A stretch of DNA of 28,736 nt, from the IMG/VR virus record IMGVR_UViG_3300029448_008690, positions 16,353 to 45,088 of that record; one strand, 5' to 3'. Positions within the stretch are counted from its first letter, which is position 1. Every line of letters begins with the position of its first letter. The stretch is from a virus. Under the pieces are notes generated by a model. The model searched no databases. It saw nothing but the letters and a program-made list of their open reading frames with translations, and was not told the origin of the DNA. Shown here in pieces: positions 2,162 through 25,168 of the stretch. A program made the position numbers and the translations under genes.

Positions 2162-2169
2162 AATAAATA
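2162..2169 (+). promoter_or_regulatory. T4-late-like promoter for sheath gene (AATAAATA)
   Basis: The word AATAAATA, close to the T4 late promoter consensus TATAAATA, lies 19 nt upstream of the sheath ATG. The same 8-mer precedes the tape measure gene. Between it and the start is AAAGAAAG, at best a weak ribosome site, so here a short leader is predicted, unlike the 5-8 nt spacing at other units. The assignment rests on the recurrence of the word at transcription-unit heads. Confidence 0.5.
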
Positions 2170-2188
2170 ATTAAAGAAAGTTATAACT

Positions 2189-4777
2189 ATGTCTAGACGA
2201 ACAATACAATCTCCAGGTGTAGAAATTAGAGAAATTGACTTAACACAACGCCCTGCAGCTCCAATTGGAACCAGTGTTTTTATACCTGGATTTTCAAATC
2301 AAGGGCCAACGGATGAAGTGTTAAATGTTGGTACCTTTTCTGATTTCGAGGAAATTTACGGTAAGCCGACTAATGCGGCTGAACGATACTTTTATCACAG
2401 TGTAAAACAGGTTTTTAATAGTGATGCAAATGTTTATGTATCAAGATTACCCTATGGTAGCGGTGGTGGTTTATCCTCTTCTGAAAACAAATACACAGCT
2501 TTAGTATATCCAGTTGTTGCTCCATTTACAATGCCAATTACTGATATTGGTACCAATTCAATTAAATTGTCTGCAACAACAAACGGATTTACAACCGGAA
2601 CAACTCTTACAGGTGATTTCTTTTTTGAGATAATAACAAAAGACGATCAAGGAAATACAAAGTATTCTACTTTCAGTGTCGCAGATGCGGCTTTATCCTC
2701 TTTATCTGTTACTGTTCCAGCCAGTGCTCTTAGTGGTTTATCGGGTGATGTTTTAATCAAAGGTACCTGTTATAGTACAGCTAGTGCCGGTGTATCTGGT
2801 TTTAACAGTTCTTTAAGTGCTTCTGATTATTACATTATTGGTAACCCCACTCTTGTTGAGCTAGATCAAGATGAGTATAATAAACTAAAGGATAGTAATT
2901 TTACTTGGAGTGACGACGCGTCAGCTGGAGATGATGAATCGTTCACTAATACCACATTGACCGGTACACCGACAGGCGCTGGTATTATAGTTTTAAATAC
3001 AGCCAAAACTACTATTAATAATAACTATGAGGGTTACTACGCTGGACTCATTGATGGTGTCAATTTGAATCCTGCTACAAGTTTTGATGGGGCTCTTACT
3101 CAATATGCAGGTACAAGTGCAGGTACAAAATCCCCTTCTGCTTTTTCTGCAGTACCATCTAGTAGACTAGATTATAGCTTAAGTGCTACAAGTACATCTA
3201 ATGCAAAATGTGTTGGTAGAACTCTTGAAGATATTCCAAGTTTCAATATTCAAGGAGGAGATTTTGTTGATACTATTGCGTTTGGTTTATTCAAAGTAAG
3301 AGTAACTCCGTTTAGTAATACTGATCTTAAGCTCAGCTATTTCTTAGCAGAAGGTTATACTGGTTCATTAAATTCTTACAGAAAAGTACAGAATGAAAAC
3401 GGTGGAGAAAGAAAATCATTCTTTTTAGAAGAGCAAGATGATTCTTCACCTAATGTAAAGATTCTTGTTAATCCTTATATTAGTAAATATGCAGGAGATT
3501 GGACTTCTCCATCGTCTGAAGCGCCGACTAAGTTTGTGAGAGTTAATAGAACAACTGATAACAACACGGCTGAGATTCAACATAAATTTCAGACTGCAAA
3601 ACTTGCAAATAAATTAAATTATAAAGATAAACAAGGCATCTTTGGTTTTGGCTCTTATGCAGATACAAAACCAACTTCTAAAAATTTAGGTAACATACCT
3701 ACAAAATTAGATCGTATATTTAATATTGCTTCTAACGTGGATCGATTTGTTATTGATGTTTCTATAGAAGCTGGTTTAGGTACTATTTGGGTTAATCTGC
3801 AATACAGTAGTAATACTACAGTTAAAAACCTCAGCTCATTCGATGATAGTGCATATTTAAATATTGGTAATATTAAATCTGGTACAGGTTTTTACACTAT
3901 TAATGAAAATATGGTTGCTGAAGGATCTGCAATTAAGATAAGAAATGATTATAGGACTATCTTTAACCAGTTTGAACAATTTGCACGAGAAACTCGTAAA
4001 GATCATATCTTTATTGCAGATGTATTGCGTAACATTGTTGTTCAAGGAGAAGATTCTAAGATCTTAGACGATAAAAATAAAAACTTCAGTCAACATGTCT
4101 ATTGGCCATTACGTCATCAGTTTGGCACAGCAAATAGTAATTATGCTACAGTTTATAGTAACTGGATAAAGGTATATGATGCTGTATCTGATCAACAAGT
4201 ATGGGTTCCATTCTCTGGTAACGCAGCTGGTTTATATGCAAGAAACGATGCTAATTTCGCACCGTGGTATGCACCAGCAGGGTACACTAGAGGGGTTGTA
4301 ACATCTGTTAATGATATTGCTATTAGCCCTACTCAGCGACAGAGAGATCAATTATACAGGGTAGCTCTTAACCCTGTAACACAGTTCCCAAATGAAGGTA
4401 TCATCATATTTGGTCAAAAGACATTACAGCGCAAGCCAACTGCATTTGATAGAGTAAATGTACGTAGATTGTTCTTAGATCTTGAAAAGCGTACTAAAGA
4501 GACCATTAAACACTTCATTTTTGAGCCAAATACATTCTTAACACGTACTAAAGTTGTTAATACTTTAACACCAATATTTGAGAATTGTAAGCAAACAGAG
4601 GGTGTTTATGATTACTTAATCGTATGTGATGAAAGAAATAATACTTCTGCAAGAATTGAAAATAACGAATTGGTAGTAGATATTTACTTAAAGCCTGTTC
4701 GAGCTGCAGAGTTCATCCTTGTTAACTTCTATGCAGTTAATAATGATGTTAATTTCGAAGAGATTGTAGGTCAGTAA
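2189..4777 (+). CDS. gp18: Tail sheath protein (T4 gp18-like)
   Basis: Sheath subunits wrap the tube as helically stacked hexamers and contract to drive it through the envelope. The 862-residue product begins with the classic sheath N-terminus SPGVEIREIDLTQRP...IGTSVFIPGFSNQGP (residues 8-42) and continues with FEEIYGKPTNAAERYFYHSVKQVF (about 49-72). The conserved C-terminal polymerisation core, about 586-862, includes VPFSGNAAGLYAR, a FAPWYAPAG segment, the NPVTQFPNEGIIIFGQKTLQ region, RVNVRRLFLDLEK and the final YLKPVRAAEFILVNFYAV. At 862 residues it is about 200 longer than T4 gp18 (659). The extra length is Ser/Thr/Gly-rich sequence between about 95 and 580, likely surface-exposed domains. 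A hairpin terminator follows the stop. Upstream is a late-type word. Identity is secure; the division of the middle region is inferred. Confidence 0.96.
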   Translation: MSRRTIQSPGVEIREIDLTQRPAAPIGTSVFIPGFSNQGPTDEVLNVGTFSDFEEIYGKPTNAAERYFYHSVKQVFNSDANVYVSRLPYGSGGGLSSSENKYTALVYPVVAPFTMPITDIGTNSIKLSATTNGFTTGTTLTGDFFFEIITKDDQGNTKYSTFSVADAALSSLSVTVPASALSGLSGDVLIKGTCYSTASAGVSGFNSSLSASDYYIIGNPTLVELDQDEYNKLKDSNFTWSDDASAGDDESFTNTTLTGTPTGAGIIVLNTAKTTINNNYEGYYAGLIDGVNLNPATSFDGALTQYAGTSAGTKSPSAFSAVPSSRLDYSLSATSTSNAKCVGRTLEDIPSFNIQGGDFVDTIAFGLFKVRVTPFSNTDLKLSYFLAEGYTGSLNSYRKVQNENGGERKSFFLEEQDDSSPNVKILVNPYISKYAGDWTSPSSEAPTKFVRVNRTTDNNTAEIQHKFQTAKLANKLNYKDKQGIFGFGSYADTKPTSKNLGNIPTKLDRIFNIASNVDRFVIDVSIEAGLGTIWVNLQYSSNTTVKNLSSFDDSAYLNIGNIKSGTGFYTINENMVAEGSAIKIRNDYRTIFNQFEQFARETRKDHIFIADVLRNIVVQGEDSKILDDKNKNFSQHVYWPLRHQFGTANSNYATVYSNWIKVYDAVSDQQVWVPFSGNAAGLYARNDANFAPWYAPAGYTRGVVTSVNDIAISPTQRQRDQLYRVALNPVTQFPNEGIIIFGQKTLQRKPTAFDRVNVRRLFLDLEKRTKETIKHFIFEPNTFLTRTKVVNTLTPIFENCKQTEGVYDYLIVCDERNNTSARIENNELVVDIYLKPVRAAEFILVNFYAVNNDVNFEEIVGQ

Positions 4778-4798
4778 AGTTATATATCTGTAATACAG

Positions 4799-4830: not shown

Positions 4831-4850
4831 GATTAATTATATGATTTAGA

Positions 4851-4858
4851 TATAAATA
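4851..4858 (+). promoter_or_regulatory. T4-late-like promoter for tube unit (TATAAATA)
   Basis: This is an exact match to the T4 late promoter -10 word TATAAATA, immediately after a terminator and only 8 nt before the tube ATG at 4867. If transcription starts about 6 nt past the final A, as in T4, the mRNA begins at about 4864 and is essentially leaderless. No Shine-Dalgarno sequence exists between the word and the start. Confidence 0.68.
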
Positions 4859-4866
4859 TTTAAAGT

Positions 4867-5445
4867 ATGGCAGATATCAAACAAACAATACAGGACTTTT
4901 ACAAAGTAGCACAATCGAGAGATTTTGCAAGAAAGTTTCAGTTTAGAATATTAGATGTATCTAATAAAGGAGCATCTGTATTTGATGAGGATGAATTAGT
5001 GTATGCTACAGGGGCTACTATACCAGGAAAAACTATTGGAGCTCAAGAAGTTCCATATAATGGTTTTACTTTTAGAGTACCCGGAACTGTTTCATATACA
5101 AACTCTGAAGCTTTTAACATTACATTTTATTGTGATGCAAATACTTCAACTCGTATAAAAATGGAAAACTGGGTAGAAGAAACCTTTAGTGACTCAACTA
5201 CAACTGGTGATGGAGTATTGCATAATAATAGTACCATAACACTAGCTCAACTAGATACTCAATTTGAAGTATTGCGGACATATAAACTATTCGGTGTATT
5301 TCCTGTTACAGTGGGAGATCTAGAATACGATATGACCAATACCGGAGAAATATTGACATTCCAAGGTGGATTTGCTTATCAGTTCTTCCGTAGAGATAAC
5401 GAAATCGGTCAAGTTGTAAACAAGGTCGGTAAACTACTATCATAA
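4867..5445 (+). CDS. gp19: Tail tube protein (T4 gp19-like)
   Basis: This is the major tube subunit, which forms the stacked hexameric inner conduit for DNA. The 192-residue product matches the gp19 layout. An N-terminal helix and first strand (RDFARKFQFRILDV, about 18-31) are followed by the loop containing YATGATIPGKTIGAQEVPYNGFTF (about 46-69), VPGTVSYTNSEAFNITFYCD (about 71-90), a helix-like KMENWVEETF segment, and closing strands around RTYKLFGVFPVTVGDLEYDMTNTGEILTF (about 138-166), ending in a conserved FAYQFFRRDNE. The length is close to that of T4 gp19 (163), with a small extension. It heads a unit of four genes whose joints are a 3-nt gap and then short overlaps. Its place right after the sheath is the standard order in T4-like phages. 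Confidence 0.93.
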   Translation: MADIKQTIQDFYKVAQSRDFARKFQFRILDVSNKGASVFDEDELVYATGATIPGKTIGAQEVPYNGFTFRVPGTVSYTNSEAFNITFYCDANTSTRIKMENWVEETFSDSTTTGDGVLHNNSTITLAQLDTQFEVLRTYKLFGVFPVTVGDLEYDMTNTGEILTFQGGFAYQFFRRDNEIGQVVNKVGKLLS

Positions 5446-5448
5446 TGT

Positions 5449-6156
5449 ATGCCTATAGAATTATCAGAACTTGATTTGCAGAACGGTGGAACGCTAACTG
5501 GTAATTTTTACCAGTTACTAAACGAAGTCGAGACCACCCTGCCTATACCTAACCTGTTTATAGTTAAGTTTGATATTCCCGCTGTAATTTCAGATGAAGT
5601 TCATGATAACTTAGGCGAATCTCCTAATGATGGTAAAACTAATATAAATGTAGCCGCTAATCTATTTAAAGATTCTAAAATAAGCACTAATACTGGCTTT
5701 GCTCTATGTAACGGTATAGACGCAAATACAGAAACTATTACGGTTGAAAAGGTAGGTAATGAAGTTAATGGTTACCTACCCCTCTCCTTTAATAAAAATA
5801 GAGATTTTAATCCAACAGATCTTGGTTTACAATTTATAGAATCAGTGATTAGTGTATCAGATTTTATTTTTAAACCGTGGATTAGAATGGTAGCTCGGAA
5901 TGGTGGCTTTTCGGATAGTAATTTGCATACTGATTTAGAAATTCTTTATTTAGAACGTTCTACTAAAACAGGTTTTTTTAACTTCTTTAATAATACAGGA
6001 TCGCCTTCTATAAGAAAAATTTATACTTTTTATAACTGCCTTCCTTATACCGTAGATGCAGAAGGTATACAGACATACGCTGATAGTCCAGCTTTAATAA
6101 ATAAACTTGTAAAATGGAAATTTGACAGGTATGATATTAAATTACCTAAGAAGTGA
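5449..6156 (+). CDS. Second tail tube-fold protein
   Basis: This 235-residue protein follows the main tube gene by 3 bases. Its N-terminus carries an NLFIVKFDIP strand (about 35-44). The middle has a long loop ending in NGYLPLSFNKNRDF, and the C-terminal half shows FIFKPWIRMVARNGG (about 139-153), DLEILYLER and IRKIYTFYNCLPYTVDAEG (about 188-206). The latter parallels the 'YKLFGVFPVTVGDLEY' block of the neighbouring tube protein. I infer a minor tube or hub-tube adaptor with the same fold, for instance a ring between hub and tube or a tail terminator. No enzymatic motif is visible. Translation is probably coupled to the tube gene, since no ribosome site or promoter word precedes it. An ATG four bases earlier is out of frame. 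Confidence 0.62.
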   Translation: MPIELSELDLQNGGTLTGNFYQLLNEVETTLPIPNLFIVKFDIPAVISDEVHDNLGESPNDGKTNINVAANLFKDSKISTNTGFALCNGIDANTETITVEKVGNEVNGYLPLSFNKNRDFNPTDLGLQFIESVISVSDFIFKPWIRMVARNGGFSDSNLHTDLEILYLERSTKTGFFNFFNNTGSPSIRKIYTFYNCLPYTVDAEGIQTYADSPALINKLVKWKFDRYDIKLPKK

Positions 6157-6872
6157 ATTTTCTTGACGTACTATCATTATCTAAAAAAATAAATTCAAAA
6201 GACTATACTGAGTTTTTTAAATTTATAAATTTGAATTACAAACCCCGTACTTGTATTGATTTAATACTTAGCATTAAAAAAGAAATATTCAGCTCTAACC
6301 CAGTATATAAGGTTACAAGAAATATTAAAGGTAAATCCTATAATCTCAATTTAGAGTATAACGATTTCCTTAATGTTAAATCTGAAGATGATGTTATTAT
6401 AGAGGGTAGATTCAAATATAAAGTTAATTACCCTAATGTTTTATCTATTACATCTCCACATTTAAATATCGTAAGTATAATAAAATCCATTTATATACAA
6501 AATAAGTGGATTGACATAAATTCATATGATTCTGATGATGTATATCAGATACTCTCAAATTTAGAGCTAGATGACTTTAAAATAATAAAAACAAAATATG
6601 AAGAGTATATAGATAAAATATCAAATTATACTTATATTACTTTCAACAAAATAACTGAACCACTATCTTTTGATATGATAGTGAAGTTTTTTATCGAGAA
6701 TTTTTATTATGAAACGAAAAACTTGCAGCAATTATTACTTTCTCTCATGAGACATTTTAATTTTACATATAGTGATTTTAAAGAAGTAGACTTTTTTGAA
6801 GTTTTGTCACTAATTAATATAGGTAAAGAGATTGTAAAAGAAGAAAACGATGTAAATAATAAAAATGAGTAA
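6153..6872 (+). CDS. Probable tape-measure chaperone / gp26-like assembly protein
   Basis: The 239-residue product starts at a GTG that overlaps the previous stop (GTGA). The frame has a stop at 6147, so this GTG is the only reasonable start. The protein is Lys/Asn/Ile-rich with no recognisable catalytic motif. Its C-terminal region, about 170-235, is helical with LSFDMIVKFFIENFYYETKNLQQLLLSLMRHFNFTYSDFKE, ending in a Lys/Glu/Asn tail. That architecture resembles C-termini of T4 gp26-type baseplate-hub assembly proteins and of tape-measure chaperones, and the gene lies between tube and tape measure, where such chaperones usually sit. It overlaps the next gene by 8 bp (AAAAATGAGTAA). The function is inferred mainly from position. 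Confidence 0.42.
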   Translation: MNFLDVLSLSKKINSKDYTEFFKFINLNYKPRTCIDLILSIKKEIFSSNPVYKVTRNIKGKSYNLNLEYNDFLNVKSEDDVIIEGRFKYKVNYPNVLSITSPHLNIVSIIKSIYIQNKWIDINSYDSDDVYQILSNLELDDFKIIKTKYEEYIDKISNYTYITFNKITEPLSFDMIVKFFIENFYYETKNLQQLLLSLMRHFNFTYSDFKEVDFFEVLSLINIGKEIVKEENDVNNKNE

Positions 6873-7554
6873 TGTAAATTTAATACTTTCAGAGTTATCT
6901 AAAAAACAAGAAGATAGTATTACTCTTCCTTTCAGTAAAAAAGAGGTAAATGTTTCTAAGCCTAAATTTAAGTTTCAAGAAGAAATTGTACAATTGTTTG
7001 AGAGTTATGATTCTGAACAATCCGCGATACTTTCTTACAGAAAATATATTAATGATTACTGTTCAACTATTATAGGTAATGACGTTAATATATTAGATAA
7101 AAGTTATTTCTTATATTACTTAGCAAGTAAACTTTCTAAGGGTAATAAATATCAAAGTATTAATGATAATATATCTAATTTAGATATCTCTAGTGTGTTT
7201 GAAATAGAAGAGGATGATATAAAATTTAAATTTATTGTAGATGTTCCGTTAATTAGTACTGAAAATAGTTTTTTACGTTTTTTCAACGCAAAGAAAAAGC
7301 TTAAAGTTGTAGAATATGCCTTTTGTGATATTTTTAGATTTGTTAAAACTATTATTATTAATAATAGCGAAAGTTTGACTATTGATATATCTGATACTGA
7401 TATTAACTCTATATATAAGATATACACCTCTCTCCCTGTCGCTACGTGCAGTAGCTTAATAGATTACATTAATAATAATATTTCTTCTAAAATCAAAGAG
7501 GCTCAAAAGGATAACGATATTGAACAAGACCCGACCATATTTGTGAGTATTTAA
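6865..7554 (+). CDS. Probable gp26-like baseplate hub / tape-measure assembly protein
   Basis: This 229-residue protein begins inside the end of the preceding gene, in the +1 frame relative to it. The N-terminal part reads ITLPFSKKEVNV (about 18-29), then FKFQEEIVQLFESYDSEQSAILSYRKYINDYCS (about 36-68), and LDKSYFLYYLASKLSKG (about 77-93). The pattern 'LP-f-s-k, short helix, lone Cys, L-x-x-x-D/S-Y-x-L-Y-Y-L-A-S-K-L-S' resembles the T4 gp26-like baseplate family, which needs the residue order D-x-x-Y/F-L-x-x-x-x-R/K-x-S. The C-terminal half is beta/helical and unassigned. With its upstream neighbour it occupies the slot of the paired tape-measure chaperones. It ends just before the promoter word of the tape measure gene, which overlaps its stop region. 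Confidence 0.42.
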   Translation: MSNVNLILSELSKKQEDSITLPFSKKEVNVSKPKFKFQEEIVQLFESYDSEQSAILSYRKYINDYCSTIIGNDVNILDKSYFLYYLASKLSKGNKYQSINDNISNLDISSVFEIEEDDIKFKFIVDVPLISTENSFLRFFNAKKKLKVVEYAFCDIFRFVKTIIINNSESLTIDISDTDINSIYKIYTSLPVATCSSLIDYINNNISSKIKEAQKDNDIEQDPTIFVSI

Positions 7555-7560
7555 TAAATA
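7553..7560 (+). promoter_or_regulatory. T4-late-like promoter for tape measure unit (AATAAATA)
   Basis: AATAAATA overlaps the stop codon of the preceding gene and lies 6 nt before the tape measure ATG at 7567. The intervening TTTACA contains no ribosome site. The predicted transcript begins at or within a base or two of the ATG. The 8-mer is identical to that before the sheath gene. Confidence 0.6.
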
Positions 7561-7566: not shown

Positions 7567-9039
7567 ATGGCAGAGCTAAATGCAGTTGCAAATGTTTTAG
7601 ATACACTTGGTAAGGCAATTTCTGATCTAAGTACAAATATTGAGAAAAGTTTTTCTGAGTTAAACGATAACTCAGAAAAACTCAATAAAAAGCTATCTAA
7701 ACAATTAGAAGAAGAGAAAAAAGGCAAGAAAAAAGAATCCCCTGAAACAGGTTTAAGAAGAGCCTTTAAGAATGTAAAAATAAATGAAAAACCTATTGTT
7801 AGAAAAGATAATACAGAATTAGTTAAATCTTTAGATGGTTTAGTTCAAAAACTACCTGAAAAATTAGAAAAATACGCTCAATCTGCAACTAAAAAGTCTT
7901 CTTTCATAAAAGCTGGATCTTTTTTAGAAAATAAAGCTCAATCTATAAAATCCAATGCAGCTTCTAAAACCGGTCTACGTGGAGGTCTTGCAAAAATTGG
8001 AGGATCAGCTACTGGAGGATTAGGTAAGTCTTTAGGTTTTCTAGGTAAGTTATTACCTAAATTAGTTAAGTTCTTAGGACCAATGGCTGTAATAGGAATG
8101 AAGCTTATAAAGGTTTTCGACATGTTAGAAGGAACCTTAGGGTTCTTAATATCAGGGGCGATTGCTTTAATTGGTACTTATATCTTTACTTGGATAGAAA
8201 TAATAAAAGATATAATAAAATGGTTCAAAGAGTTACCTGGAAAAATTTATAGATTTTTCAGCGAAGACTTACCTTTACTATTTGAAGCAGCAATTATTAA
8301 ACTAAAAGAAACCTTCACAAATTTATACAACTATTTACAAGAAAAAATATTTCAACCATTAGCAGATTATTTATATGAAGCTTGGGAAGGAGTATTATTA
8401 TATTGGGATGAGTTTAAAGCAGCATTTAATCAAAAAATCGAGGAAATTGCTGATTCAATTTATGAGACATGGGAAGGAGTGAAAATCTGGTACAACGAAC
8501 TCAAACAAAAATTTAGTGCGTGGTTAGAAGAATTTGCCGATGGATTATATGAAGCTTGGGAAGGGATCGTTGCATATAAAGATGAACTAATGGCGTCAAT
8601 TAATAATATGGTTAATAATATTAAACAAGCTGCTATTGGAATGTTTACTAATATTATAGGGTGGATTAAAGAAAAAATTGATGCTGTTCTTGACATAGGT
8701 GGTAAGGCTGTTGACGCAGTAAAGGGGTGGTTCGGTTTCGGTGGTGATGAACAACCTGACTCAGTAAAAGAACAAAAGGAACTAACTCCTGAGGAATTCC
8801 CGAGTGGGGTTGTCAATCAAAATACAGTTCCTGTAATTAATATTGAGGCGAATGATGAACAAATGAAGATCATAAACGAGACATTAAAGCAAAATCAGCG
8901 TCAAAATGAAAAAGTAAATCAAACAATTGAGTTATTAATTAATACAATTGATAAAAAAGAACTTGGAACTACTGTTATTAACAATACTGCTCCTACACCA
9001 ACCCAATCATATAGTAATGGTGGAAAGGTAAGAAGATAA
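7567..9039 (+). CDS. Tail tape measure protein
   Basis: This 490-residue helical protein sits in the tape measure position. The N-terminal 120 residues are charged and coiled-coil-like, with a Lys/Glu-rich stretch (about 47-58). A Gly-rich, strongly hydrophobic middle (about 150-215) includes two membrane-segment-like runs, near 160-182 (FLGPMAVIGMKLIKVF) and 191-213 (GFLISGAIALIGTYIFTW), as is common in tape measures that enter the host membrane. Then come three 29-residue repeats of ADxLYEAWEG type (266-352). The C-terminus contains a coiled coil (about 418-462) and ends in YSNGGKVRR. For comparison, T4 gp29 is 590 residues. The protein is released into the tail lumen and sets tube length. 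It heads a five-gene unit with the cap, gp53-like, hub and an unknown gene. Confidence 0.82.
   Translation: MAELNAVANVLDTLGKAISDLSTNIEKSFSELNDNSEKLNKKLSKQLEEEKKGKKKESPETGLRRAFKNVKINEKPIVRKDNTELVKSLDGLVQKLPEKLEKYAQSATKKSSFIKAGSFLENKAQSIKSNAASKTGLRGGLAKIGGSATGGLGKSLGFLGKLLPKLVKFLGPMAVIGMKLIKVFDMLEGTLGFLISGAIALIGTYIFTWIEIIKDIIKWFKELPGKIYRFFSEDLPLLFEAAIIKLKETFTNLYNYLQEKIFQPLADYLYEAWEGVLLYWDEFKAAFNQKIEEIADSIYETWEGVKIWYNELKQKFSAWLEEFADGLYEAWEGIVAYKDELMASINNMVNNIKQAAIGMFTNIIGWIKEKIDAVLDIGGKAVDAVKGWFGFGGDEQPDSVKEQKELTPEEFPSGVVNQNTVPVINIEANDEQMKIINETLKQNQRQNEKVNQTIELLINTIDKKELGTTVINNTAPTPTQSYSNGGKVRR
8362..8622 (+). repeat. Three in-frame 87-bp tandem repeats in tape measure gene
   Basis: Copies lie at 8362-8448, 8449-8535 and 8536-8622 (residues 266-294, 295-323 and 324-352), each exactly 29 codons. 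Each begins A-D-x-[LI]-Y-E-[AT]-W-E-G, followed by an amphipathic Tyr/Trp-rich helix with a D/N-E-[FL] step at positions 16-18. The DNA has diverged while the protein register is exact, so the units are old duplications held by selection on length and helix phase rather than a recent slippage product. Confidence 0.9.
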
Positions 9040-11917: not shown

Positions 11918-12744
11918 GTTTAACCCCAGCAAAAACTTTAAAAGAGGAATTAATAAGTACTAAGCTCGCAGATTCAGCAGCTAATCAAATAGCTAGTATT
12001 GATAACAACAATCCTTTCTCTGTTTATAAAGATCATTTTGATTTATACATTCAATATGAAAACACCAAAACAAAAAATGACCCTATAACTAGTGAAGTAG
12101 AGTTTTGGAAAAACAATATTAGTAAATTTGAGAGTCTGGAACCTGAATTCATTTTATTTTGGATGCGTAAATTATCAAATGCTAATCCTCAGGTTTTAGA
12201 GGATTTGAAAGATAGTTTAAATATTGAAACCTCAACCTTACAAACTTTAAGTGATAGTTTGGGTAATATATTTGATCAAGATATAACAATAGATAGTAGG
12301 TATACCCCTATGTTTGATATTGATTTTGATAGTAATAATCCCTTACCTTATAATAACATACTTGATAGTAAGTTGAATTTTCAGTATAAGAAAAATATAT
12401 CTCAATTAAGTACTAAAGTAAATAGCTTATTCAATCAAAATATAACTAATATAGTACAGCCATCCTCCCCTAAAGTACCACACGGAGGCAATCTTGTAAC
12501 TGACTTTACTCATATAAATAGAATTGCAGAAAATAAACCAACTTTTTATGCAACAATAGCTGATAAGTTAGATAGTTCATACGAGACGTTTGTGTTTTTA
12601 GCTAATTATAAACTCAACAATTTACAAGAAGTAGTCAAAGTGGAGTTTGATAATAATGTAGAGGGAGTGTCTGTTAGAATCGACCTTAAAGGTGATAAAA
12701 TTCAAACCGAGAAGAGTGTCAATACTAAAGATCTACTCATCTAA
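11914..12744 (+). CDS. Uncharacterised tail/baseplate protein after the hub
   Basis: I do not recognise this 276-residue protein. The N-terminal half is helical and acidic (an FILFWMRKLSNANPQVLEDLKDSL segment near 77-100); residues about 120-190 are Asn/Asp/Ser-rich; and the C-terminal 70 residues (ETFVFLANYKLNNLQEVVKVEFDNN, then VRIDLKGDKI) look like beta strands. It occupies the place after the hub where a spike or hub-lysozyme could lie in other phages, but no lysozyme, amidase, peptidase or PAAR motif is visible. ATGA overlap with the hub gene suggests coupled synthesis. The last 12 bases overlap the convergent minus-strand gene. Confidence 0.8.
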   Translation: MSLTPAKTLKEELISTKLADSAANQIASIDNNNPFSVYKDHFDLYIQYENTKTKNDPITSEVEFWKNNISKFESLEPEFILFWMRKLSNANPQVLEDLKDSLNIETSTLQTLSDSLGNIFDQDITIDSRYTPMFDIDFDSNNPLPYNNILDSKLNFQYKKNISQLSTKVNSLFNQNITNIVQPSSPKVPHGGNLVTDFTHINRIAENKPTFYATIADKLDSSYETFVFLANYKLNNLQEVVKVEFDNNVEGVSVRIDLKGDKIQTEKSVNTKDLLI

Positions 12745-13743: not shown

Positions 13744-14667
13744 ATGGAACTCACTGACATCTGGGTAGAAAAATATAGACCGAGTAAATTAGATGATGTA
13801 GTTTTATCTGAAGAGACTAGATCTTATTTCAATAATATCAAGCGGACTGGTAATTTACCGAACTTGCTTTTAGTTGGCACCCCAGGTGTCGGTAAAACTT
13901 CTTTAGCTAAAATTATTATCAGTGATATACTTAAGGTACAGTATCTTTACATTAACGCGTCTGATGAAAATGGTATTGATACTATTAGAACTAAGGTTCT
14001 AAATTTTGCCCAGACGCAGAGTTTATTTAATAATATCAAAGTAATCATTCTTGATGAGTGTGATGGGCTCAGTCTAGATGCACAAAAGGCGCTGCGTAAT
14101 AGCATGGAAGAGTATCATGATATTGCAAGGTTTGTATTAACTGCAAATTATCAGCATAAGATAATTCCTGCTTTACAATCTAGATGTCATGTATTTGTTT
14201 TCAACCCACCTAAGGAGGATTATGTAAAGAGAATTGTACATGTAGTAAATCAGGAGAAAATAAGCATAGAAAAAGATATTTTATCTGAAATTATTAATAA
14301 ATCTTATCCCGATTTACGTAAATGTATTAATAACTTACAGAAGTTTAATATATCTGGTAAACAGATGAGTGTACTTAATAGTGCAGAGGCCGTTGTATCT
14401 TCATGTCTCTCGTTAGTTAAGAGTAATGATATGTACAAGGCACGTAAACACATCATCGAAAACGAGAGCGCGTTTGGAAATGATTATGACACTCTATTCA
14501 AAGCATTATTCGATCACTTATATGCAAACAAGCTAAAGTTATCTGATCAAAAAAACAGAGACTGTATGATTACAGTCTCTGAGTACTTTTATAGAAATAA
14601 TATTGTTATTGATAAAGAGATTAATTTCTACACTTGTCTTATAGAATTATCAAGACAAGTATTTTGA
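13744..14667 (+). CDS. gp44: Sliding clamp loader ATPase subunit (T4 gp44 / RFC small subunit-like)
   Basis: This AAA+ ATPase opens and places the sliding clamp on primer-template DNA. The 307-residue product shows IWVEKYRPSKLDDVV (6-20), the RFC-type N-terminal box; Walker A GTPGVGKTS (45-53); Walker B with the RFC-like DECD box, VIILDECDG (100-108); sensor 1 LTANY (132-136); SRC (146-148), the arginine-finger motif acting in trans between subunits; and a C-terminal helical collar (about 205-307). It is close in size to T4 gp44 (319). The partner gp62 and the clamp gp45 are not in this window. The gene follows dut by three bases. Its last 18 bases overlap a convergent gene and include one arm of a 9-bp inverted repeat. 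Confidence 0.95.
   Translation: MELTDIWVEKYRPSKLDDVVLSEETRSYFNNIKRTGNLPNLLLVGTPGVGKTSLAKIIISDILKVQYLYINASDENGIDTIRTKVLNFAQTQSLFNNIKVIILDECDGLSLDAQKALRNSMEEYHDIARFVLTANYQHKIIPALQSRCHVFVFNPPKEDYVKRIVHVVNQEKISIEKDILSEIINKSYPDLRKCINNLQKFNISGKQMSVLNSAEAVVSSCLSLVKSNDMYKARKHIIENESAFGNDYDTLFKALFDHLYANKLKLSDQKNRDCMITVSEYFYRNNIVIDKEINFYTCLIELSRQVF
14632..14660. repeat. 9-bp inverted repeat at convergent gene ends, possible terminator
   Basis: ACTTGTCTT (14632-14640) pairs perfectly with AAGACAAGT (14652-14660) across an 11-nt loop, followed on the plus strand by ATTTTG. It lies at the end of the clamp loader gene and inside the end of the minus-strand gene. The stem is modest and the T run short, so termination is only a possibility. 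It is partly constrained by coding sequence. Confidence 0.35.
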
Positions 14668-15156
14668 TGTGTAACTCTCACCGGCTAATTTGTAATTACC
14701 GTTATCTATTTTAGATTTATTACCTACTGCTACGTCTTGATCTTTCACAGGTTCAGGCTTAGCAGTATTTTTTTCTTCCTTCTCGTTGTTTTTATCTGTT
14801 CTAGTCGCTCTATGATCTGAAGAACTCATATCGAATTCCACTAATTCTATAGGTATAGAAAGATTATTTGTATAAAATCCAGGAGCTTCTTCCACAGTAA
14901 TATCTGCAATATACTCTTTCGAGCCTAGAGCGTTGGTCTCATACTGTGTAGACTTTATCGCACTAAAAAGAATATATTTCCCAGCTTCTTGTAACTGGAT
15001 AATATTTTCTACATAAGCTTTCCTGGTTTCATCTAATTTTTTATACCAGTCAGAGCTTTTCACATTAGAGCGGATCTTTACGTAATCTCCTGGGATCGCG
15101 CTAGTTTTACTGAAACGCTGGTATACTTCATTGTATATTTCGATAAATTTTCCCAT
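14650..15156 (-). CDS. Uncharacterised minus-strand protein with disordered charged linker
   Basis: I do not recognise this 168-residue protein. Residues 1-115 look folded: IEIYNEVYQRF (5-15), IPGDYVKIR (21-29), a helix DETRKAYVENIIQLQEAG (about 42-59), then strands KYILFSAIKS and KEYIADITVEE. Residues about 110-150 are a Ser/Asp/Lys/Glu/Pro-rich, probably disordered segment (DKNNEKEEKNTAKPEPVKDQ), followed by a short tail ending YTSKYLS. 'GDYVKIR' hints at a small beta-barrel, but no family is assignable. It starts from one arm of a perfect divergent inverted repeat, 6 nt downstream of the late-type word, so it is probably expressed with the tail genes, and it overlaps the clamp loader 3' end by 18 bp. 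Confidence 0.8.
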   Translation of the reverse strand: MGKFIEIYNEVYQRFSKTSAIPGDYVKIRSNVKSSDWYKKLDETRKAYVENIIQLQEAGKYILFSAIKSTQYETNALGSKEYIADITVEEAPGFYTNNLSIPIELVEFDMSSSDHRATRTDKNNEKEEKNTAKPEPVKDQDVAVGNKSKIDNGNYKLAGESYTSKYLS

Positions 15157-15162: not shown

Positions 15163-15170
15163 TATTTATG
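15163..15170 (-). promoter_or_regulatory. T4-late-like promoter for minus-strand orphan gene (CATAAATA)
   Basis: CATAAATA on the minus strand is followed by ATTAAA and ATG (6-nt spacing). The same 8-mer precedes the C1q-headed fibre gene. A leaderless or near-leaderless transcript is predicted, as no ribosome site fits in the spacer. Confidence 0.6.
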
Positions 15171-15184: not shown

Positions 15185-15192
15185 ATTAAATA
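15185..15192 (+). promoter_or_regulatory. T4-late-like promoter for baseplate wedge unit (ATTAAATA)
   Basis: ATTAAATA is followed by ATTAAA and ATG (6-nt spacing), a mirror image of the divergent promoter. It heads a four-gene unit (gp25-like, gp6-like and two large structural genes). Confidence 0.58.
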
Positions 15193-15198: not shown

Positions 15199-15681
15199 AT
15201 GGCTATTAGTTTAGACTTTTTAGATGAAAATAAGTTAAAAGATAAGACAACTACGTTCTCTTATAGTGATCTTGCTTTAGATTTTGAATTGAGCTCAGAT
15301 ATTAATAATAAACCATTAAATCGAGCAGATAATAAAAAAGATGTTAAGCTCTTATATGATGAACAAGCTATCTATCAGAGTATACAAAATATTTTCAATA
15401 CAATACCAGGTCAAAAGATACTAGACCCTGAATTTGGTTTAGATTTAAGACAATACTTATTTCAACCTATAAATGAAAATACAGGTATACTTATAGGAGA
15501 AACTATACAAGAAAAATTACCTTTATACGAACCGAGAGTGACTGTTCATCGAGTTAATATAAAAGGTAGACCTAACCAGAATGAATATATTATAGAGTTA
15601 GTTGTCGTTATACCAACATTAAATAATAAAGAACAGTTAGTTAAAGGAGTTTTAGATACTCAAGGATTTAGATATAATTAA
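15199..15681 (+). CDS. gp25: Baseplate wedge protein, gp25-like
   Basis: This protein belongs to the GPW/gp25 family, found in nearly all contractile injection systems, where it joins the gp6-type wedge and nucleates the sheath. The 160-residue product carries the family core QSIQNIFNTIPGQKILDPEFGLDLRQYLFQPI (about 60-91) and then IQEKLPLYEPRVTVHRVNI (about 101-119), followed by strands IIELVVVIP and a C-terminal G-V-L-D segment. The 'N-T-x-P-G-x-x-x-x-x-P-x-F-G-x-x-L-x-x-x-L-F' motif is diagnostic. It has about 50 extra N-terminal residues, somewhat longer than T4 gp25 (132). The start sits in one arm of the divergent inverted repeat. A 2-base gap precedes the gp6-like gene. Confidence 0.93.
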   Translation: MAISLDFLDENKLKDKTTTFSYSDLALDFELSSDINNKPLNRADNKKDVKLLYDEQAIYQSIQNIFNTIPGQKILDPEFGLDLRQYLFQPINENTGILIGETIQEKLPLYEPRVTVHRVNIKGRPNQNEYIIELVVVIPTLNNKEQLVKGVLDTQGFRYN

Positions 15682-17518: not shown

Positions 17519-19660
17519 ATGGCTACTTGCGATCCAATTGGCGAAATATCAGAATGTCCTAGTACAATAGCAATACCTATAGGTGTTACTCCTGCCCTTT
17601 CTGGTTATACAAGATTTACCGAGTTTACATTCACACCAAAATTAACTGGTAATTTTGCAAATTATTATCATAAAGATATAAGTGAAGTAAAGGTTGTATG
17701 GGACTTCGGAGATGGTTACACTCTTAGTGCAGATACACCTTTAGAACCCACGTATAGTTATAGCTACCCAGGTACTTATACTGTAACTTTATATTTTTAC
17801 GATAATGAAGGTAAAGCCTTGATGAACACTTTAACTAAATCAATAAGTGTAGATAATTTTGTCGGTAATAAAATTACATTTCAAGGGGATAAGAAGATAT
17901 CAAAAGCAGGTAGTCTAACTACTGTAGGAAATAATAATAAAATTGATTATAGAGTCCAAGTTACTTGGCAAGATTACTACAGCGATAATACAAGTGTATT
18001 TTTTTCTGTAAGCGGCCTCAAAGCTGATTTGTATGATCCTACATATAAATATTCGTTTCTATTACCTTTTAGGTCGTTTTATAATTATACAAATAATCAA
18101 TTTAAAATACTTGAAGGTAATAGACAAGAAGTCTCTATGAGACCGATGTACTATATTCGAAACGGTAACACACCTACTCTCACTAGTGATCCAGCTCCGC
18201 TTTCCTCAGCTTACATTTTAGGAGCCGAGGGTACTTCTTCAATATATTATTTTGATGACAAACCAGGTAGTAAAAAACTATACGGAACAATAGATACATC
18301 TAAGCATACATTACCAGATTACTACATAAATAATGTAAGTGATAATATAAATTTGTCTGATCTTAGCTATCAAGAAACCAACATAAGTCATATAAACGTT
18401 GAAACAGTACGTAACAGATCAACAAAATTAATACTTACAAGTACTGGCAATAAAAATATGCCTTTACCGGAGTACAAACGCCAAGGAGATAAATTTAGAG
18501 TTTTTGTCGCGGCTGGAAGTGATAGCGGTGATATACATAAGTTTTATAATAAATTTTATTATGATAATGAAGGTTATGATAACGGGGAATTAAAAAAATT
18601 CAAAGTTACTATAGGATCAACTCTGTCATCAAGTGTTACAAGTTCATTAATATCAAGTGTTAGTACTGATAAATTCCCATATAATACTTCACTAAGCAGT
18701 AGTGCTTTAACATCATTCTTTTATTTTAACTACACTCCTACTAACGTTGGTACACATACTTTATATGTAATTGGTAAGCCTACAGTTGATTCTGGTGTAC
18801 TTTCAGGTTCTTATACTTTTACAGTACTACCTTCTGCAGGAAGTGAATTTTATAAAATAAATGAACTAGAATTTGATCATAAAGAAGTTCTCAAAAGTTA
18901 TAGATTTCAAGACTTCTTACATGAATATGATAACTTATTCGATGGAGTTTTAGGTTCTATAGTTGGAACAGTTTCGAGTAGCCCTAGTACATACGGTAAA
19001 GCTGTTTATGAGAAAATTAGCAATTTCGTAACCAATAACTCTGATGTTGATACATGTAATATTGACATTCTTAAAAAGTTATATGATTTACTGAACGAGG
19101 AAAATACATTTAACACCATTGCTGTTCCTCCATCGCTTAAAAGGTTATATGATTTATATACAATAAGATTTAGACGTTTAATGGGCATGAACGAGAAGTT
19201 TGATGAGAGTTTTGACACTTTCTATACTAGTAATTCCGCATATGCTCAAAACGTAGATTACAATAACCCATTGTCAGTTACAACATACACAGTAACAGCA
19301 GGAACACCATTTGTGGCTGTTCAAAAGTTCAACAAAGAGGTAATTAAAATAAATCCAATGAACGTACCTAATACAACAATAAATACAGGTACAACAAGCG
19401 CTTATCCTTTAAGTAATTTTAATTTATCAGCCAACTGGGGATGGTCGTTGGATGATACTACAGCTGGAACTCAGTTATCTGCTATATATGATTTCTATCC
19501 TTATATTGAAAATTATAATAATGAGAGAAAGAATAATATTTTGGACTATACGAATTTAAGTCATAATACACTTACAACACAACTCACTAGTACATCAGCT
19601 TGGAATACAGAGGTGTATAAAAATATTGACCTCCAAATTAGAGAGGGATTAAGTTTATGA
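17519..19660 (+). CDS. Large baseplate/tail protein with PKD domain
   Basis: This 713-residue protein follows the gp6-like gene by two bases, the place of gp7 in T4, but I cannot show homology to gp7. Residues about 25-112 form a PKD (Ig-like) domain: EVKVVWDFGDGY (57-68), PTYSYSYPGTYTVTLYFYDN (77-96). A second beta domain around 140-260 and a third, Ser/Thr-rich one at about 355-440 ending SGSYTFTVLP, look Ig-like. The C-terminal part (about 450-713) is helical: KEVLKSYRFQDFLHEYDNLFDG, then DILKKLYDLLNEENTFNTIAVPPSLKRLYDLYTIRFRRLMG, probably the conserved baseplate-binding segment. The PKD domain may bind carbohydrate or neighbouring proteins. It overlaps the next start by 4 bases (ATGA). 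Confidence 0.72.
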   Translation: MATCDPIGEISECPSTIAIPIGVTPALSGYTRFTEFTFTPKLTGNFANYYHKDISEVKVVWDFGDGYTLSADTPLEPTYSYSYPGTYTVTLYFYDNEGKALMNTLTKSISVDNFVGNKITFQGDKKISKAGSLTTVGNNNKIDYRVQVTWQDYYSDNTSVFFSVSGLKADLYDPTYKYSFLLPFRSFYNYTNNQFKILEGNRQEVSMRPMYYIRNGNTPTLTSDPAPLSSAYILGAEGTSSIYYFDDKPGSKKLYGTIDTSKHTLPDYYINNVSDNINLSDLSYQETNISHINVETVRNRSTKLILTSTGNKNMPLPEYKRQGDKFRVFVAAGSDSGDIHKFYNKFYYDNEGYDNGELKKFKVTIGSTLSSSVTSSLISSVSTDKFPYNTSLSSSALTSFFYFNYTPTNVGTHTLYVIGKPTVDSGVLSGSYTFTVLPSAGSEFYKINELEFDHKEVLKSYRFQDFLHEYDNLFDGVLGSIVGTVSSSPSTYGKAVYEKISNFVTNNSDVDTCNIDILKKLYDLLNEENTFNTIAVPPSLKRLYDLYTIRFRRLMGMNEKFDESFDTFYTSNSAYAQNVDYNNPLSVTTYTVTAGTPFVAVQKFNKEVIKINPMNVPNTTINTGTTSAYPLSNFNLSANWGWSLDDTTAGTQLSAIYDFYPYIENYNNERKNNILDYTNLSHNTLTTQLTSTSAWNTEVYKNIDLQIREGLSL

Positions 19661-21814: not shown

Positions 21815-21822
21815 AGTAAATA
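21815..21822 (+). promoter_or_regulatory. Possible late-type promoter for lectin unit (AGTAAATA)
   Basis: AGTAAATA lies 12 nt before the ATG at 21835 and overlaps the end of the previous gene. A second AT run (TATATATAA) touches the start codon. It is weaker and more distant than the other words of this class, but again stands at a unit head. Confidence 0.38.
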
Positions 21823-21834
21823 TTTTATATATAA

Positions 21835-23328
21835 ATGTTTCAAAGCAAACAATCAGATTATTGGTTTAAAGAAGATACAAGAGAATTCTTAGTATGCGCA
21901 GTTACGTCTGTATCAGCTCAAGGGCCTCCTTGCAAGGGAGACCTTATAGCTCATTTTCCTTGTATATATAGTATTAATAAGAATACTAATAAAAAGAAAC
22001 TAATATTTCCTTCAGATATTACGGACTGCTCATCAGCTCAATTAACTTCAGAATCTGCGCCAGGGTACATGTATTCTTTCGTACCATCTGAAAGTGCAGA
22101 TATTAATATATCCGAGATAAGTAAACCTATAATATCTTATAATGAAAAATCAGATTTGTATAATATTACATACTTAGGTCGGTATCAAAGCTCCTCTGAT
22201 GGATTTTCTATATTCTCTTATGTGTTTCAATATGTAGATGAGTATATGAAACCAATAGATAGTAGAGTCATACTACCTGAAAGTAAACGTAGAGACTTAA
22301 ATTTTACTTTTGCAAATGGAAATATACATAGAGATTTTTATGTAGATGGTAACTCAACAGCGACGAATACTACTGTGTTCGGTGTCAATTCAAACATAGA
22401 TATAGGAGAGAGGCCTCCGAATTACAAAATTCGACCATTCCATAAAGGTGATGATATTGTTTTTAATACAGCAATGTATTCTGTCTCGTGTACGGAATTA
22501 ACAGCTAACTCTTCTTTACCTTTAGGTCATTCTGGTGGTTTCATTACACAAACACCTAATACATTAGCTTATACTACTAACCACTGTATAAGAGTTGACT
22601 TTACCTGTAAATCATATTCTCTACCTGGTAATGATCAGATAGGTTTTCTGGGTACTAGAACTATTTCTGGAACACCTCTATCATCCTCAAGAGCTATACA
22701 ACAACATACTTTGAGTGCTGGGCCCGCTGAAGGATTCTGTGTTTTCTTTTATGAACAACCGGATGTTGATTTAAAGCTAGATCTTAACGGTGTTAATAGT
22801 TCTATGGGTTATTGCCCATCTACTTCTACTCAATTAGAAGAGGGTGGATTTGATGGTTGGTCAACAACTGGTATAAATTTAAGCGGGTTTGTTGGTATTG
22901 CGTTTGATATCGCAGGTAACTTTTGTACAACAACAGAGGGTAAACCTGGTTCATATAACAATACAACATATACTCAAACAATGTGCTCTATAGGAGTTAG
23001 AGCCGGTAACGATAATAATTATAAAACTATAGGGCAATCAACTCAGATTACATCCATACCCTTACATGAAACCGTTACTGCCGCAGCTAATGCTACGTAT
23101 AAGGATTTCAGAGTAGAGCTATCTCAAATGGGACGCACTATTATAGTTTCAGGGAAAATTTCTACAGATGCAGAATACACAGAATTATATAGATTAAATA
23201 TGGCCAAATTAGTTAATTTTGATTTTACAGTACCGAAAAATATTAAAGTAGGTCTCAGCTGTACTACGTCTCTAAGTGTATTTAATTTTGAGCTCAAAAG
23301 CTTTAAAGTAGAAGGAATAACTCAATGA
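21835..23328 (+). CDS. Cysteine-rich protein with L-type lectin/ConA-like C-terminal domain
   Basis: This 497-residue protein is probably part of the host-recognition apparatus. The N-terminal half (1-235) is beta-rich and unassigned. The second half looks like a concanavalin A/L-type lectin jelly roll: CIRVDFTCKSYS (about 249-260); GPAEGFCVFFYEQPD (296-310), comparable to the 'aDGiaFfl' strand; GGFDGWS (about 335-341); NLSGFVGIAFDIAGNFC (about 348-364), comparable to 'l-x-VEFDT-x-x-N' with a potential metal/sugar-binding Asp; and VGLSCTTSLSVFNFELKSFKVEG (473-495), the closing strand. I count 12 cysteines, unusual for this genome. Sugar binding is inferred from fold only. It ends in an ATGA overlap with the next gene. 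Confidence 0.7.
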   Translation: MFQSKQSDYWFKEDTREFLVCAVTSVSAQGPPCKGDLIAHFPCIYSINKNTNKKKLIFPSDITDCSSAQLTSESAPGYMYSFVPSESADINISEISKPIISYNEKSDLYNITYLGRYQSSSDGFSIFSYVFQYVDEYMKPIDSRVILPESKRRDLNFTFANGNIHRDFYVDGNSTATNTTVFGVNSNIDIGERPPNYKIRPFHKGDDIVFNTAMYSVSCTELTANSSLPLGHSGGFITQTPNTLAYTTNHCIRVDFTCKSYSLPGNDQIGFLGTRTISGTPLSSSRAIQQHTLSAGPAEGFCVFFYEQPDVDLKLDLNGVNSSMGYCPSTSTQLEEGGFDGWSTTGINLSGFVGIAFDIAGNFCTTTEGKPGSYNNTTYTQTMCSIGVRAGNDNNYKTIGQSTQITSIPLHETVTAAANATYKDFRVELSQMGRTIIVSGKISTDAEYTELYRLNMAKLVNFDFTVPKNIKVGLSCTTSLSVFNFELKSFKVEGITQ

Positions 23329-24347
23329 AGATATCAACTTATACTTTAACTACATCTCAACAAACCAATACAGCTACTATATCTACAGTAACTCAAAACC
23401 TCACTGGGACAACCAATATAACATTTAGTTTAAGTGGTATTGATCAAGTACAATCTCCTGTTGATAAGATTATAGTTACATTCTATGATGATCGTGAAGT
23501 TGTATACAGCCGGGATCTCGAAACTACAACAGATGTTAAATCTCTAAGCTCTGCTGTATTTACCCAGGTTATACATAGTGAGTTAATTGATGGGTGTGAA
23601 AAACAGGTGGATTTTCTATTACACAGAGATGATGGTATTTCAGATTTATATACTGTCGCGTTTAAAATGTATAAGAGTATATTAAGCGACTATGTTGATA
23701 TTAATCTCGTAAAGTCGGATTTTTTTGAAGTCGATAGTAACGGTAACAACGGTGATACGTTATTACTAACTTTTGAAGCGGATAATCCTGAATTAGTTGG
23801 ATTAAATTATCTCAATTTGGATTCAAATGATTATAACTATTTTGGATCAACTGAAAATACTAATACTAGTTCTTGCTCTACAGTAGTAGATTTTGTCGCG
23901 AAAGACGAGATCGCTATTATAGAAGCATATCGGAGTCATAGTTTAATAGATGTATCTGCCGCTGGCTGTCTTGATAGTAAGTTTAATTTAAAATACAGGA
24001 CTAGAACAGGTATAGGTACAGCAAATTTACCAGGACTAGGTTGGGTAGAACCTGCAATAATGAATTCGCAATTCATGCATGTAACAGGTTTCCTTCAATG
24101 GCATTCTAATGACGATTCATCTATTAAAGATATAAATATTCCTATTATAGATATTTACGGATCTAATCTTGAAAATCCTTATAGTGTTTATTTAAATAAT
24201 GTATGTACTGGTGTAGGTACCAGCTTAATGCCTGTAAGTGGTGGATACTTTTTTGTAGATCTGTATGGCCTTGCAGGATGTGAAACTGTTAATATAGGTA
24301 CAAGCACTCTCACGGCTTATATAAGTTATAACGAATTTCAAGCATAA
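23325..24347 (+). CDS. Uncharacterised beta-rich tail protein
   Basis: I do not recognise this 340-residue protein. It is Ser/Thr/Asp-rich and appears to be made of beta domains. The first (about 25-125) has an Ig-like feel: NITFSLSGIDQVQSPVDKIIVTFYDD, then QVDFLLHRDD. The C-terminal half includes FNLKYRTRTGIG (about 215-226), GLGWVEPAIMNSQFMHVTGFLQW and a terminal STLTAYISYNEFQA. Five cysteines are spread along it. A good Shine-Dalgarno (AAGGA, 8 nt before ATG) and the ATGA overlap indicate coupling with the lectin-like gene, so the two are probably partners in the same structure. Its stop codon lies inside the promoter word of the next unit. Confidence 0.75.
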   Translation: MKISTYTLTTSQQTNTATISTVTQNLTGTTNITFSLSGIDQVQSPVDKIIVTFYDDREVVYSRDLETTTDVKSLSSAVFTQVIHSELIDGCEKQVDFLLHRDDGISDLYTVAFKMYKSILSDYVDINLVKSDFFEVDSNGNNGDTLLLTFEADNPELVGLNYLNLDSNDYNYFGSTENTNTSSCSTVVDFVAKDEIAIIEAYRSHSLIDVSAAGCLDSKFNLKYRTRTGIGTANLPGLGWVEPAIMNSQFMHVTGFLQWHSNDDSSIKDINIPIIDIYGSNLENPYSVYLNNVCTGVGTSLMPVSGGYFFVDLYGLAGCETVNIGTSTLTAYISYNEFQA

Positions 24348-24350
24348 ATA
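24343..24350 (+). promoter_or_regulatory. T4-late-like promoter for fibre unit (CATAAATA)
   Basis: CATAAATA overlaps the stop codon of the preceding gene, 5 nt before the fibre ATG at 24356; the intervening bases are ATTAT. It is the same 8-mer as before the minus-strand gene at 14650-15156. A leaderless transcript is predicted. Confidence 0.6.
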
Positions 24351-24355
24351 ATTAT

Positions 24356-25168
24356 ATGGCGCTAGAAGACGAGATTATTAATATAGAAGATTTAGATATA
24401 GCTACTGAAATTAAGATAGGTGATTATGTTCTATTAGAGACGACTAATGGAACGAAATTATTGGATTTTAAGGATTTTGTTATTGGAGTAGACAATATAA
24501 CATTTTTTGACCGAATATCTGGTTCATACTTACAGGTCTCAGATATATCTGCAATAAGCGCTAAGACTCTTAATAACGAAACATTACTCTCGAGTATAAG
24601 CGGTGTAAACACTGATATTAATGAGATTAGAACTAGAATTGGCTCTGTCGAGGCCTCTTTTGTTAATTTAGTAGAAAATATTAATACAGATGCCATTAAT
24701 GCATCAGATATAACTAGTTTTATAAATGGTACAATAGGGTTCACAGTATCTAATACTGCTAACCGGATTTTGAGTCATAGTAGAGGTTTTCTTAAATTTG
24801 AAGAGTTTGTGTTTTCTGGTACTGCCTTAGCTAAATCTAGTACTGGGGATATCAATTTATCAGCTGAACCAGATGATGCAAAGGGCTTTTTCTACAAGGC
24901 AAAAGGTTCATATGGTATGCTGTTTAATGGAACTATAAATACTCAAGCTCAAGCTCGTAGTAATTTTCTTTTACAGCTCAGAAAAAATGGTAAACCCATC
25001 GCCGAGTACACCGCTAGTAGTACAACCGCGGATGGTAATACAAAACAAAGTAATAATTATAACTTTTCTTTATATTTGAATTTAGTAGCTAATGACGTGA
25101 TTTCTTTAGCGTTTACTAACCCAGATGTAACTTTAAAAAACTCTATATTCTCTGGTATTAAGATTTAA
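24356..25168 (+). CDS. Short tail fibre with C1q-like head domain
   Basis: This 270-residue protein is laid out as a trimeric fibre. The N-terminus, with IKIGDYVLLETTNGTKLLDFKDFVIGVDNITF (about 19-50), looks like a particle-attachment domain. A coiled coil follows (about 74-112: LLSSISGVNTDINEIRTRIGSVEASFVNLVENIN). The C-terminal 110 residues match a C1q/TNF-type jelly roll: GFFYKAKGSYGMLFNGTIN (about 176-194), NFLLQLRKNGKPIAEY (about 203-218), NFSLYLNLVANDVISLAFTNP (about 236-256), and the final NSIFSGIKI. The 'L-x-L-x-x-x-D-x-[IV]-x-L ... N-S-x-F-S-G' ending is the C1q signature. Such heads bind host surface ligands. It lies 2 bases upstream of the large adhesin gene, with a likely shared transcript. 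Confidence 0.75.
   Translation: MALEDEIINIEDLDIATEIKIGDYVLLETTNGTKLLDFKDFVIGVDNITFFDRISGSYLQVSDISAISAKTLNNETLLSSISGVNTDINEIRTRIGSVEASFVNLVENINTDAINASDITSFINGTIGFTVSNTANRILSHSRGFLKFEEFVFSGTALAKSSTGDINLSAEPDDAKGFFYKAKGSYGMLFNGTINTQAQARSNFLLQLRKNGKPIAEYTASSTTADGNTKQSNNYNFSLYLNLVANDVISLAFTNPDVTLKNSIFSGIKI

Follow-up and report, generated by a model that had tools for sequence, protein, structure and literature searches.

The window analysed here is a 28,736-nucleotide stretch of DNA, bases 16353-45088 of the 45,088-base viral record IMGVR_UViG_3300029448_008690, and it carries genes of a T4-like phage. A box of the T4 late-promoter type, which includes the word TAAATA, lies only a few nucleotides (nt) before the start codons of several of these genes, and the same placement recurs in related phages. 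The evidence set out below supports the view that this box is a T4-type late promoter marking the heads of late transcription units. Very probably, the box is read with the phage sigma factor gp55 and is fused to the start codon, so that late mRNAs are leaderless or nearly so.

Promoter boxes beside start codons

An earlier reading made from the letters of the window (the sequence-only reading) had named eight boxes and their distances from the start codon. All eight are found in the sequence with the spacers claimed. They are given here together with a weaker match before gene w6865; the spacer is the number of nucleotides between box and start codon, and +1 is the predicted first nucleotide of the transcript.

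2162-2169, plus strand: box AATAAATA of the tail sheath gene; spacer 19 nt, predicted 14-nt leader containing GAAAGTT
4851-4858, plus strand: box TATAAATA of the tail tube gene; spacer 8 nt, predicted leader 3 nt (AGU)
6851-6858, plus strand: weak box TGTAAATA of w6865, whose reading frame overlaps that of the preceding gene; spacer 6 nt
7553-7560, plus strand: box AATAAATA of the tape measure gene; spacer 6 nt, predicted leader 1 nt
13191-13198, minus strand: box ATTAAATA of w13185(-); spacer 5 nt, predicted +1 at the A of AUG
15163-15170, minus strand: box CATAAATA of w15156(-); spacer 6 nt
15185-15192, plus strand: box ATTAAATA of gp25; spacer 6 nt
21815-21822, plus strand: weaker box AGTAAATA of the lectin-like gene; spacer 12 nt, predicted +1 a T
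24343-24350, plus strand: box CATAAATA of the C1q-like gene; spacer 5 nt, predicted +1 at the A of AUG

Gene gp25 and w15156(-) diverge from a 42-bp gap that contains both promoters. Outside the window, a similar placement is seen at record positions 11184(+), at 6 nt, and 13109(-) and 14044(-), each at 5 nt.

Orthologues preserve these distances. The box stands exactly 5 nt from the start in 13 of 14 orthologues of w13185(-) and in all six of the C1q-like gene, and it is likewise at 5 nt in 7/7 orthologues of the gene at record 14044(-). It is found at 6 nt in 5/5 orthologues of w15156(-), at 6-7 nt in 5/5 of gp25 and again at 6 nt in the other orthologue of the tape measure gene. Most tube orthologues have TAAATA at 5-11 nt, and most close sheath orthologues have the box at 16-19 nt. 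Orthologues of the lectin-like gene retain AGTAAATA nearer to the start, and the weak box of w6865 is retained in 4 of 11.

Chance expectation was estimated from 1,000 dinucleotide shuffles of upstream regions. Across the whole 45-kb record, TAAATA occurs at 5-6 nt before 9 of 51 starts (shuffles 0.48 +/- 0.70, maximum 4) and at 5-8 nt before 11 of 51 (shuffles 0.96 +/- 0.94, maximum 5), which upholds the earlier estimate that six such placements are unlikely to be coincidental. The window as a whole contains no excess of the word (76 occurrences, 101 expected), so the signal is purely positional.

In a set of 1,523 upstream regions from related phages (the family), TAAATA is the top-ranked hexamer at 4-8 nt, with 305 occurrences against 15.9 expected. 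Its reverse complement, TATTTA, is barely raised in the same set (34 versus 20). A histogram of spacers from 1,006 distinct upstream regions of related contigs has its highest counts at 5 nt (111) and 6 nt (65), with few occurrences per position beyond 20 nt. The mode remains at exactly 5 nt (85), followed by 6 nt (49), when similar sequences are collapsed, a step that corrects only in part for the kinship contained in the family counts. Spacing is stable across orthologues of 42-91% identity although their flanks diverge. Genes were called by a simple longest-open-reading-frame rule and some starts may be wrong; such errors would blur the spacer peaks rather than create them. The positional enrichment that the sequence-only reading predicted upstream of all gene starts is present in both the record and its relatives.

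Evidence for a promoter

The genomic context of the box is that of a promoter. In the record and four long relatives, a box at 5-7 nt precedes 3 of 308 genes that are coupled to their upstream neighbour, compared with 43 of 120 genes whose upstream neighbour lies on the opposite strand. Many structural genes carry the box. The family's gp41, gp43, gp44, gp46, gp47, gp55, gp61, uvsX, uvsW and nrd genes have none near the start, with isolated matches about 40 nt away; gp32 and phoH are the exceptions to this avoidance by replication genes. The difference between late and early genes in the family is significant (Fisher p = 2e-4).

With the genes sorted by spacer length, A/T-T-T-A is the consensus after the 3' end of the box at almost all spacings, and in 78-93% of genes with spacings 6-20 the position 6 nt past the box is a purine. 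These features keep register with the box, and the conserved sequence is therefore anchored to the box and not to the ATG. No TTGA peak indicative of a -35 element is found upstream of the box in the relatives, as is expected for promoters of the gp55 type. The claims of a late promoter and of leaderless mRNA have both come through tests that were capable of refuting them.

Predicted 5' ends

Late boxes of T4 occupy positions -13 to -6 (PMC1524935), and under this geometry transcription from a box with a 5-nt spacer would begin at the A of AUG. Many genes have spacers of 7-10 nt, for which leaders of 2-5 nt are predicted; those of a few genes, such as sheath, would measure 11-14 nt. Late mRNAs that are leaderless or have 0-5-nt leaders are strongly predicted on this basis. 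The sequence-only reading had proposed leaderless late mRNAs, a claim that is supported in substance and refined in that many predicted leaders are 1-5 nt rather than zero.

Terminators constrain the 5' ends further. Intrinsic terminators ending no more than 12 nt upstream of the box are found at 30 of 270 box genes and at 6 of 1,253 others. In the clearest arrangement, at record 13110-13165(-), a terminator hairpin, a late box and the ATG are fused within about 45 bp. The U-run of the hairpin (fold z-score -6.1) enters TATAAATA, which is followed by ATTAT and then by the ATG of the gene at 13109(-). This hairpin-TTTTTTTATAAATAATTAT-ATG arrangement leaves no room for a leader. Any transcript of 13109(-) begun upstream would contain the terminator. 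The box lies at 5-6 nt in 11 of 11 distinct orthologues, the terminator is visible in all eight displayed, and the module recurs at other genes of the relatives.

Shine-Dalgarno words precede none of the record's ten box-proximal genes, in agreement with the earlier remark that no such sequence fits in the spacers, and they precede 5% of box-proximal genes in the family. For the family as a whole, Shine-Dalgarno words are at background (10.5% versus 10.7-11.5% in control windows). The same measure gives a clear signal in the Pelagibacter phage HTVC008M (55% versus 15%) and in T4 (76% versus 13%). The side remark that the host does not use Shine-Dalgarno sequences is probably right.

Two leadered late genes have GAAAGTT at nearly equal distances before the ATG, in the stretches just upstream of sheath (window 2170-2188) and of the gene at record 14109 (record 14090-14108). 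Distant sheath orthologues have AAAGGTT. This element is possibly a residual ribosome-binding element.

Early promoters with a matching geometry

A second promoter type lies equally close to other starts. In four long relatives, TTGH separated by 17-20 nt from a TANNAT that ends 4-9 nt before the start is found at 13-14 starts per genome, compared with 0.7-0.9 expected. The mode of the distance to the start is exactly 6 nt (32 of 139 after similar sequences are collapsed). A sigma70 -10 box occupies positions -12 to -7, so a distance of 6 nt is the one expected for a leaderless transcript. The late and early promoter types, unlike in their internal geometry, thus both peak where +1 coincides with the A of AUG, and this suggests that early mRNAs may be leaderless as well. 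Examples in the window are:

2100-2105, minus strand: -10-like TATTAT of w2090(-), at a distance of 9 nt; in orthologues TATAAT lies 8 nt from the ATG
2122-2127, minus strand: -35-like TTGATT of the early-type promoter of w2090(-)
13243-13248, plus strand: -10-like TATCAT of the dUTPase gene w13255, at a distance of 6 nt; TTGAAA lies at 13221-13226

Gene w2090(-) also has TAAATA 1 nt before its start. This match was not counted as a late promoter, since orthologues show TTGA-N-TATAAT there, and it is probably a by-product of the sigma70-like promoter. The gene encodes a nucleotidyl transferase (1248-2090, minus strand) on the opposite strand between tail genes, and relatives keep it with an early-type promoter. 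In HTVC008M, gp43 and gp61 (L167 47061 and L168 18253) have TTGTGATATAATATAT in common, and their -10 box lies some 11 nt from the ATG, so that leaders of about 5 nt are predicted.

Proteins of late transcription

The sequence-only reading had suggested looking for a gp55-like late sigma gene. All ten long relatives encode gp55 (phrog_234, E 1.5e-28). A sliding-clamp homologue is encoded at record 5219-5959 and matches the clamp of relative G007 (E 1.8e-29). The PF02916 profile misses the clamp; phrog_223 clearly finds it in one relative, whose protein in turn finds the remaining clamps. Weak matches to phrog_254 fall within a long baseplate frame and were rejected as gp33. The ribosomal protein bS21 was also rejected as a component of the mechanism, since it is found in only 1 of the 10 long relatives.

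Proposed mechanism and alternatives

In the proposed mechanism, host RNA polymerase carrying gp55 would recognise NNTAAATA as the box of a T4-type late promoter, and in this phage lineage that box would have become fused to the reading frame. Transcription would start 6 nt past the last A of the box, that is, at the A of AUG with a spacer of 5 and 1-5 nt before AUG with spacers of 6-10. We infer that mRNAs from the heads of late units have no leader or almost none, and that ribosomes bind directly to the AUG at their 5' end. Downstream genes in each unit would be translated through overlap coupling, and a minority of genes (sheath, record 14109) would retain a short leader.

Several observations weigh against this mechanism. 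The 45-kb fragment itself lacks a gp55 gene, and gp33 is not detected in the relatives with either the HTVC008M protein or phrog_254. The clamp is divergent. Spacers of 7-12 nt are common and imply short leaders, not zero, and the 5' ends are positions predicted from sequence. One coupled gene, w6865, has the word, so that the earlier claim of a word confined to unit heads and absent before overlap-coupled genes holds nearly but not strictly.

The common spacers of 7-12 nt, some of 19 nt, and the divergence of gp55 here could also point to a late promoter at which transcription starts further down- or upstream than in T4, with translation from other starts or from short leaders. This is unlikely, because, whatever the spacing, a purine is found where T4 has +1, and the modes of 5 nt (late) and 6 nt (early) are exactly the two leaderless values; the annotated starts of HTVC008M also fit the 5-nt placement. 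The sequence-only reading had offered another alternative, in which a host that does without Shine-Dalgarno sequences would recognise the AT-rich word to initiate translation; transcripts would then begin further upstream. Initiation in the family must indeed differ, given its background level of Shine-Dalgarno words, and the word does lie 5-8 nt from starts. Such a signal should not be missing from coupled genes and most replication genes, nor should the flanking sequence keep register with the word instead of the ATG. Terminators lie directly upstream of the word, and early units have at their heads, in the corresponding position, a promoter of another, canonical kind. In HTVC008M, moreover, the word also occurs 16-36 nt upstream, mostly with an intervening Shine-Dalgarno sequence, and in T4 it occurs at 9-46 nt. 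A translation signal is accordingly very unlikely. Chance matches in AT-rich intergenic DNA might be expected in a window of about 31% G+C where TAAATA is frequent, yet the shuffles, the TATTTA control and the spacing kept in divergent orthologues refute this explanation, which retains practically no probability.

Beyond fusion of late boxes to start codons, it seems reasonably likely that this T4-like lytic lineage largely lacks 5' untranslated regions. At both early and late promoters, +1 would coincide with the AUG or lie only a few bases from it, with terminator-promoter-AUG modules of about 45 bp at some borders and no use of Shine-Dalgarno sequences.

Gene content of the window

The window encodes a T4-like contractile-tail phage, with genes for sheath, tube, tape measure, gp25, gp6, the clamp loader gp44 and dUTPase. 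Upstream of it, the record carries gp41 helicase, gp32, primase and terminase genes. The genes discussed above are:

1248-2090, minus strand: nucleotidyl transferase, w2090(-) (PF00483)
2189-4777, plus strand: tail sheath protein (PF17482, PF04984, phrog_23)
4867-5445, plus strand: tail tube protein, gp19-like (phrog_45, E 3.6e-30)
7567-9039, plus strand: tape measure protein (phrog_58, E 1.4e-14)
12733-13185, minus strand: 150-residue protein w13185(-), conserved in relatives; no Pfam or PHROG match
14650-15156, minus strand: 168-residue protein w15156(-), its gene divergently oriented to gp25; no Pfam or PHROG match
15199-15681, plus strand: gp25-like baseplate wedge (PF04965, E 2.1e-14)
21835-23328, plus strand: 497-residue product, labelled a lectin by the sequence-only reading; no Pfam or PHROG match
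24356-25168, plus strand: 270-residue product, labelled a C1q fibre by the same reading; no Pfam match and a weak PHROG match

A protein with a PKD domain is encoded at 17519-19660, next after the baseplate gene gp6. In relative G004 (48385-49995, in L197), the frame of the terminase large subunit is in two pieces, as could result from a frameshift, an intron or an assembly error.

Uncultured relatives are numerous. Isolates are distant, with a best identity of no more than 42% for terminase and about 30-47% for sheath among the matches listed. Two scans of bacterial genomes for relatives of the terminase, intended to identify the host, gave no match, and no tRNA genes were found that might serve as a host clue.

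Comparison with known systems

Late transcription of T4 is a textbook system, and the mRNAs it produces carry ribosome-binding sites in their leaders. Both elements of the present arrangement, the T4-type late promoter and the leaderless mRNA, are known. Searches of the accessible literature, from which subscription papers are mostly absent, turned up no case in which the two are fused across a phage lineage and no report of leaderless T4-type late mRNAs. In the arrangement described here, which occurs throughout a widespread group of phages and partly also in a cultured Pelagibacter phage, the T4 promoter type would be joined directly to the start codon. Its box spacing offers a sequence rule for annotating start codons in such genomes, and leaderless translation at viral scale becomes testable in an existing phage-host pair. 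A 2020 survey found that late-promoter prediction failed in pelagimyophages (PMC7029224); placement of the box beside the start is a possible reason for that failure.

Two Pelagibacter phages of the Kyanoviridae, HTVC008M and Mosig, resemble the window phage and have an annotated gp55. The box stands exactly 5 nt before 11 genes of HTVC008M, including gp2, gp4, gp48, gp25 and gp3, with starts that match the GenBank annotation, and before 5 genes in the 100 kb of Mosig examined. In HTVC008M, gp2 and gp4 diverge over 26 bp that contain both promoters, and a box near the start is found for 9 of 23 late genes compared with 0 of 21 early genes. The same box lies 18-30 nt before gp8, gp20 and gp21, with a Shine-Dalgarno-like sequence between box and ATG; overall, Shine-Dalgarno words precede two of the 13 genes with a proximal box and eight of the 10 with a distal one. 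Unlike the window phage, these two phages have Shine-Dalgarno sequences at about half of their starts and many leadered late genes, so that leaderless units would be a subset. Both also have an annotated bS21. In the regions examined of other phages, a box at 4-8 nt is found before six genes of Mosig, before one gene each of Melnitz, CP220 and S-SKS1, and before no gene of T4, XG4, phiM9 or Syn9.

The late promoters of T4, which depend on gp55, gp33 and gp45 and have the consensus TATAAATA, share with those described here the box itself, the lack of a -35 element and the position before morphogenesis genes. A gp55 homologue is present in the long relatives, and the record encodes a gp45-type clamp homologue together with the gp44 clamp loader. 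The difference lies in placement. In the main late region of T4, TAAATA is mostly 9-46 nt before genes, with a peak at 27-28 nt and no occurrence at 4-8 nt; a Shine-Dalgarno word accompanies 13 of the 14 box-distal genes. The window phage has its box right beside the start and lacks a Shine-Dalgarno signal.

Leaderless mRNAs are also made from promoters of the sigma70 type. The lambda cI mRNA transcribed from PRM is the textbook phage case, and many others are found in actinobacteria and Deinococcus. These share with the present family a promoter element directly before the AUG and the lack of a Shine-Dalgarno sequence, and the family's early genes resemble them. The late class differs in that its element is a phage-sigma box without a -35 element. 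Lambda cI is a single repressor gene, whereas the arrangement described here spans the gene set of a lytic phage.

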